From Anaerolineae bacterium (lineage in GTDB: Bacteria > Chloroflexota > Anaerolineae > Aggregatilineales > Phototrophicaceae), in the NCBI GenBank assembly GCA_021296065.1, contig JAGWBD010000005.1, positions 1 to 64,000 on the forward strand: 64,000 bases of DNA, in the 5' to 3' direction. Numbering within the stretch: the first letter of the stretch is position 1; the number at the start of each line of letters is the position of its first letter. Made by a program: the position numbers and the translations under genes. A model generated the notes under the pieces. That model worked only from the letters and a program-made list of their open reading frames with translations. It was not told the origin of the DNA and did not search any database. Positions 24,331 through 25,185 of the stretch are shown here, piece by piece.

Positions 24331-25185
24331 ATGCTCGCACAAGGCAAGCCCATCAAACCAGTCTGGCGCGCCGTTCAGGCGGTCTTGCTGACCCTGTTGA
24401 CGGCCGCCTGCACGATGCCGACTGTGCTGGACAACTTCCTGTCCGATGCCCAATCCGCCACAGAGCGCGACGCCGTCACTGCGCCTGCGGACCCAACATC
24501 CCGGCCCTTCGTCGCCGACCTGCCGGTGCTGGGCAAAGCGCCGGAATTGCATGACGGCGCCTGGCTAAACACCGCCACACCATTGAGTCTGGCCGGTCTG
24601 CGCGGCAAGGTGGTGGCTCTGGAGATGTGGACCTTCGGGTGAATTAATTGCATCCGGGTGATCCCCTCGTTGAGGGGATGGCATCAGCAATTCGCCGACC
24701 AGGGTCTGGTCGTCATCGGCAACCACTATCCCGAATTCAACTTTGAGCGCGACATCCATGCGGTCCGCGAAGCAGTGCAGCGTCTTGACGTCCCCTACTC
24801 CGTGCTGCAGGACAACGGGCGCGAGACCTGGAACGCCTACAACAATCGCTTCTGGCCCGCGCTTTACCTGATAGACAAACAGGGTCGGATACGCTACCGC
24901 CACTTCGGCGAGGGCCGTTACGAGCAGACGGAACAGGCCATCCGCGACCTGTTGCGCGAGACATGGGACGGGGCAGCCAGCCCGGCTTCAGCCCTGCCGC
25001 CCGGCCTGAACCCGACGGACATCCTCAAAGTGCGCAGTGGCCCGGGTGTGGGCTACGAAATCATCGGCCTCATTTCGCCCGGCGAGGTTTACCGGCGCCA
25101 CGGCGAGCAGGACGGCTGGCACCGCATCCGTCACCAGGGCCGCGAAGGCTACGTCTCGGGCGACTATGTCACCCTCAGCGGGTGA
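24331..25185 (+). CDS. Candidate selenocysteine-containing lipoprotein: thioredoxin-like domain plus C-terminal SH3-like domain (TGA at 24640 read as Sec)
   Basis: Same frame across ORFs 24079..24642 and 24658..25185; LLTAAC lipobox; GKVVALEMWTFG[U]INCIRVIPSLRGWHQQFADQGLVVIGNHYPEF matches TlpA/DipZ-type WTxxCINCxR; SH3 ILKVRSGPGVGYEIIGLISPGEVYRRHGEQDGWHRIRHQGREGYVSGDYV. Confidence 0.75.
24640..24679 (+). promoter_or_regulatory. Putative bacterial SECIS element (UGA + downstream hairpin)
   Basis: TGA at 24640-24642; perfect 8-bp stem ATCCCCTC (24661-24668) / GAGGGGAT (24672-24679), loop GTT with G first; loop starts 27 nt after UGA. Confidence 0.65.

Follow-up and report, generated by a model that had tools for sequence, protein, structure and literature searches.

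A hairpin inside the coding sequence of an Anaerolineae thioredoxin-like gene is very probably a bacterial SECIS element

The window, a stretch of 64,000 nucleotides from an uncultured Anaerolineae bacterium, contains a thioredoxin-like gene which is interrupted by an in-frame TGA (24640-24642, forward strand) and carries a hairpin shortly after it. Does this TGA end the gene, or is it read as selenocysteine (Sec) with the hairpin serving as SECIS element? Between the ATG at 24331 and the stop at 25185, the frame is open except for this one codon. Translation through it gives a selenoprotein CDS on the forward strand (24331-25185; 284 amino acids including Sec104) with the motif context ...EMWTFG-U-INC-IRVIPSLRGWHQQ, and according to the alignment of homologs the TGA occupies the position of the first cysteine of a CxxC motif (U-I-N-C). 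Standard gene callers would split the gene at the TGA into two ORFs (24079-24642 and 24658-25185); the annotation is corrected here to one gene across the TGA, which is almost certainly read as selenocysteine.

The protein encoded by the read-through frame matches the Pfam families AhpC-TSA (44 bits) and Redoxin (34.6 bits), both above cut-off. Its thioredoxin-like (AhpC-TSA) domain is encoded by positions 24577-24897 of the forward strand, as assigned by Pfam and structure matches, and is followed on the same strand by an SH3_3 domain (25024-25170; Pfam match above cut-off). The closest solved structure identified by sequence is the C-terminal domain of Mycobacterium tuberculosis DipZ (5e-52); NHLRC2, SOQ1, and ResA come next. 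The same proteins were matched by a structure model whose quality is moderate (mean pLDDT of 68; mostly 75-90 in the thioredoxin part). In this model, helix 104-123 begins just past the motif position, which would place the redox motif at the opening of the first active-site helix. We infer a UxxC thiol:disulfide oxidoreductase resembling the DipZ C-terminal domain, with predicted redox activity. The N-terminus is hydrophobic, and its segment LLTLLTAAC is possibly a lipoprotein signal. None of the dedicated selenoprotein models of NCBIfam matched the protein above cut-off, and no CcdA membrane domain was found in it.

The original prediction described a perfect 8-bp stem within the codons of RVIPSLRGWHQ, with a G at the first loop position 27 nt from the UGA. 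The sequence agrees in each respect: The 5' arm ATCCCCTC (24661-24668) pairs over all eight positions with the 3' arm GAGGGGAT (24672-24679), both arms lie on the forward strand within these codons, and the apical loop GTT (24669-24671) begins with a G at base 27 downstream of the UGA, leaving 26 nt between them. Bacterial SECIS elements have been delimited by a loop of 3-9 nt, an upper stem of 4-16 bp, a G in loop position 1 or 2 that is usually followed by G or U, a distance of 16-37 nt between UGA and loop, and a minimum free energy (MFE) of at most -7.5 kcal/mol (PMC13188914). The window hairpin lies within all five limits, with a 3-nt loop, a perfect 8-bp stem, a G followed by T, a spacing of 26 nt, and an energy of -12.0 kcal/mol for the stem-loop alone. 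The spacing is the same in every homolog bearing the hairpin, and the loop is GTT or GGT in all TGA homologs which keep the stem. For homologs of the Lys type (see below), the bare 8-bp stem has only -7.2 kcal/mol; with flanking pairs, the value is -9.2 kcal/mol or lower in most of them. The predicted RNA fold of 24640-24720 includes the hairpin (z -2.1).

Beyond the eight pairs, the stem can be extended over a 1x1 mismatch by pairing GT (24658-24659) with GC (24681-24682; the whole element spans 24658-24682, forward strand). Among the 36 distinct TGA homologs, the outer G-C pair of this extension is kept in 25 and the U-G pair in all 36. A possible lower stem of 6 bp (24646-24651 with 24687-24692, forward strand), derived from the fold of the window only, had looked convincing both here and in a separate gene of genome G060 (L091, described at the end); since only 44% of its cells pair in the homologs, it is not regarded as conserved.

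How readily does such a hairpin arise by chance? A hairpin of SECIS geometry whose energy is equal or better follows 35 of the 1711 TGAs of the window (2.0%) and occurs in 253 of 20,000 synonymous recodings (1.3%). At a chance rate of 1-2%, the hairpin by itself is uncommon and not decisive; judging it on energy alone was therefore rejected. The MFE of the 54-nt segment is 2.7 SD below that of synonymous recodings, and the hairpin is composed of codons which are rare within their families (AGG 5%, GGA 11%, TTG 14%, TCG 18%). A covariance model built from the homologs found this site as its sole strong match in the own genome (68.5 bits; next 16.6 bits). What the hairpin alone could not settle, namely its identity as a SECIS element, is settled by the comparison of TGA and Cys homologs and by compensatory pairs.

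Relatives were collected by scanning one genome per species (85,462 species), which gave 80 loci, almost all of them belonging to Anaerolineae and other Chloroflexota. The comparison set, consisting of scan loci and copies from the own group, contains 40 sequences with TGA (almost exclusively from Anaerolineae) and 39 with a cysteine codon (TGC or TGT) at the same position; the in-frame UGA is thus aligned with the cysteine of family homologs. Two congeners retain the in-frame TGA at 83-84% identity and are identical to the window across 32 nt of the hairpin region, with a synonymous divergence of 0.36-0.59 after the TGA among the three congeneric species. The dN/dS values downstream of the TGA, determined against the congeners, are 0.10-0.14, which indicates that this part is under purifying selection at the protein level. 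Outside the genus, the best matches within the same order (E < 1e-40) have no internal stop; the exception is G147, where one copy contains a TGA and a TAG and the TGA at this site is unconfirmed. Relatives found by the plasmid search were all below 60% identity, those with an annotation being named DipZ; a scan of viral contigs found no relatives.

The stem separates the two groups of homologs. In the 40 TGA homologs, eight of eight pairs are formed in 34 sequences, seven in three, six in one, and four in two. If seven or eight pairs plus the loop G are demanded, 37 of 40 TGA homologs and 2 of 39 Cys homologs possess the hairpin (Fisher p ~1e-16, not corrected for phylogeny). Base pairing is thus conserved across the TGA homologs with three exceptions.

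The search for compensatory changes in homologs, which the original prediction had proposed as a check, gave a positive result: three base pairs show coupled changes. Among the 36 distinct TGA sequences, 95.5% of the cells were paired, compared with 89.2% after shuffling and no more than 62% with the arms slid against each other. Changes on both sides were observed at the three pairs in 20 cells versus 5.2 in shuffled data, a value reached by none of 500 shuffles. In each coupled pair, one side is synonymous and the other side alters the amino acid: The proline codon is CCC in combination with AGG (Arg; 26 of 40) and CCT in combination with AAG (Lys; 12 of 40), and the isoleucine codon is ATC if the partner is GGA or GGC (Gly) and ATT if it is GAA (Glu). 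Since synonymous codons on one arm track the amino acid changes of the other arm, the cost of keeping an RNA element inside a protein becomes measurable. No such codon coupling was detected among the Cys homologs. Codon choice differs between the two groups: Arginine is encoded by AGG in 26/28 TGA homologs versus 0/10 Cys homologs, leucine by TTG in 35/37 versus 11/26, and serine by TCG in 37/39 versus 10/20.

These counts have to be read against the phylogeny. A maximum-likelihood tree of 79 proteins requires 11 changes between Sec and Cys, at least four of which are forced by well-supported branches. Of the four supported contrasts, an average of 3.3 associate the hairpin with Sec and none shows the opposite; four are too few to reach p 0.05. 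On the same tree, the pair linking Pro to Arg/Lys changed about two times and the pair linking Ile to Gly/Glu about five times, so that compensatory cells can by no means be counted as independent. Owing to the small number of independent changes and contrasts, the raw p-values overstate the case; nonetheless, the direction is uniform.

The sequences deviating from the general pattern deserve a closer description. Two kinds of homolog had been named in advance as speaking against a SECIS element, i. e. those with TGA lacking a conserved stem-loop and those with Cys carrying the identical hairpin. Both exist in small numbers. Three of the 40 TGA homologs (L112, L122, L138) lack the hairpin which the other 37 keep: Two pairs are broken in L112, and the related L122 and L138 encode Ser-Leu-Arg as AGC CTC CGT and have no comparable stem; they may use an alternative SECIS element or be non-functional. 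Among the Cys homologs, of which only 2/39 conform to the hairpin rule, L126 (TGT) carries an intact hairpin including the GTT loop, which is probably a SECIS relic in a Cys gene. L113 forms seven of eight pairs and has the loop G, L114 has kept the stem and lost the loop G (loop CTT), and L116 and L117 form six pairs. All five belong to the Lys-type clade. Given the ratios of 37/40 and 2/39, the most plausible reading of the exceptions is that they comprise decayed or alternative elements plus a SECIS relic.

For the Cys homologs with hairpins, the simplest reading is a recent replacement of Sec by Cys with a SECIS element in decay. Note that the Lys-type peptide reaches the stem by chance more easily (0.8% of recodings), which makes the relic reading a lead and not a result. 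According to a review from 2026, replacement of Sec by Cys is rare and has been documented mainly for FdhA and SelD (PMC13188914); with Cys homologs whose hairpins are intact or decaying, it would be possible to trace the loss of Sec directly. It is conceivable, and we propose it only tentatively, that this oxidoreductase of Anaerolineae has exchanged Sec and Cys more than once, so that some Cys genes still carry fossil SECIS elements, and that the Sec form serves a periplasmic redox system linked to the repair of methionine sulfoxide by MsrPQ.

Decoding of UGA as Sec requires a machinery whose components SelA, SelB, SelD, and tRNA-Sec were all located, SelB of the own genome being represented by its N-terminal part only. 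The tRNA-Sec of the genome scores 74 bits and has the anticodon TCA; SelA is present in all three congeneric genomes, the own included. SelB (L039/L044, G000:C58) comprises the first ~150 residues and then meets the contig end, so the incompleteness of the gene stems from the assembly; two congeners possess a complete SelB, and the one that was scanned has the domains SelB-wing_2 and wing_3. SelD (L042/L043, G000:C70, minus strand) contains itself an in-frame TGA at the catalytic position (SAGSAG-U-ASKCGPGDL) and, judged from this sequence, is likely a selenoprotein as well. The RNA after its TGA fits the SECIS model weakly (-8.1 kcal/mol in a simple scan). SelA was found in 28 of the 30 tested genomes that carry TGA homologs, and among genomes carrying Cys homologs it was found in 17 of 20; its presence was consequently rejected as a discriminator between the two, and the machinery fits a Sec codon without deciding the matter.

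Which other explanations could account for the locus? The stem might be a by-product of the protein sequence, the peptides IPSLRGW and IPSLKEW giving complementary codons by luck and without any RNA function. The 1.3% of recodings of the window gene which equal the hairpin, the 0.8% which yield the Lys version under the codon use of Cys homologs, and the several Cys homologs with 6/8 pairs show how a resemblance can come about. However, luck would have to produce a hairpin containing the loop G in 37 of the 40 TGA homologs versus 2 of the 39 Cys homologs, the rare AGG for arginine in 26/28 versus 0/10, and synonymous Ile and Pro positions that track amino acid changes on the opposite arm; moreover, the Arg versions did not appear in any of 20,000 recodings with the codon use of Cys homologs. 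We consider this explanation highly improbable.

Slightly less probable still is a TGA that acts as ordinary stop or represents a pseudogene lesion, with a downstream ORF which is dead or separately started at GTG 24658. This TGA recurs in 40 assemblies that stem from different studies, the sequence after it is under purifying selection, and truncation would delete most of the thioredoxin fold. These points outweigh the two observations that favor this explanation, namely that gene callers would give two ORFs and that the source is a metagenome-assembled genome. As other TGAs of the window end long ORFs, a general change of the code is not indicated. Hairpins can promote readthrough in general, and the case for Sec at the UGA is an indirect one; hence UGA might be read as Cys or Trp by another kind of recoding, with the hairpin as a general signal for readthrough or pausing. 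This would leave unexplained the complete Sec machinery (with full SelB in the congeners), the exact correspondence of the UGA to a cysteine at the redox site, and the SECIS-like spacing and loop G, and of the three explanations it is the one we regard as nearly negligible.

The hairpin is thus very probably a SECIS element of the canonical bacterial type, embedded in the coding region for a thioredoxin-like selenoprotein with predicted export. The coding-compatible SECIS candidate put forward in the original prediction has gained support from 37/40 TGA homologs, from coupled changes, and from the Sec machinery. Mechanistically, SelB in complex with Sec-tRNA(Sec) would bind the hairpin, chiefly the stem and the loop G, when the ribosome arrives at the UGA; Sec would be inserted as the nucleophilic residue of the U-x-x-C active site. 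The selenoprotein would be exported and is predicted to function in thiol-disulfide redox reactions of the cell envelope; in relatives having msrPQ adjacent, this function may be combined with methionine sulfoxide repair.

Compared with the bacterial consensus of bSECISearch (restated in PMC13188914), the element is of the same kind: a 3-nt loop, an 8-bp stem, 26 nt between UGA and loop, a loop G followed by U, and a stable stem in coding sequence right after the UGA. Its peculiarity is the unusual uniformity of the set to which it belongs; compensatory pairs occur in numerous species, the exceptions number three, and at least one Cys homolog retains what looks like a relic. The set is unusually informative, as it comprises some 37 SECIS elements, all located at the same position of a single family. 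UxxC selenoproteins of the Prx-like, Trx-like, and redoxin types are known from the entries PF00578, PF08534, and cd02966 (PMC13188914, PMC2398784). The window protein shares with them the thioredoxin fold, the Sec at the first position of CxxC, and the matches to AhpC-TSA and Redoxin; in contrast to them, it represents a lineage similar to the DipZ C-terminal domain (WTFGUINC) found in Anaerolineae, with msrPQ adjacent in most relatives and an SH3_3 fusion in the window genus. Its best matches in sequence and fold are the DipZ C-terminal domain (2HYX, 5CYY), ResA, NHLRC2, and SOQ1; where DipZ and ResA have Cys, the window protein has Sec. In the literature, we found no paper naming this WTFGUINC selenoprotein lineage. 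SECIS elements and UxxC selenoproteins as such are already known; the record of compensatory change is unusually clear here, and the record of switching between Sec and Cys is promising.

The gene neighborhood adds hints on function. Upstream of the gene, domain annotation identified a protein with GAF, PAS, histidine kinase, receiver, and DNA-binding domains (21672-24062, forward strand), and relatives likewise have a sensor kinase upstream. The gene msrP adjoins 28/40 TGA and 23/39 Cys homologs, mostly together with msrQ, and the opposite flank of the gene usually holds a sensor kinase; an example is L169:1960-3536, with equivalents in about 50 loci. This neighborhood, present in most Anaerolineae, links the thioredoxin family to periplasmic methionine sulfoxide repair; a role of the protein in envelope thiol redox or in such repair is a proposal. 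No MsrP above the family cut-off was found in the own and the two congeneric genomes, for which reason the link to msrPQ cannot be claimed for the species of the window. Downstream of the selenoprotein gene, the window contains a thioesterase gene. The selenoprotein stop overlaps a GTG, the possible start of the thioesterase ORF (GTGA, 25182-25185), which suggests translational coupling of the two.

A different thioredoxin of the DipZ/NHL type was noticed on the reverse strand of locus L091 (G060:C471). It has an in-frame TGA 394 nt into the reverse complement, with the context EFWTFC-U-INCHHNVAQ, followed by a SECIS-like hairpin with the loop AGTT and a G at +27. Long open frames in the homologs of L091 point to Cys, so that this locus looks like a separate gain of Sec.
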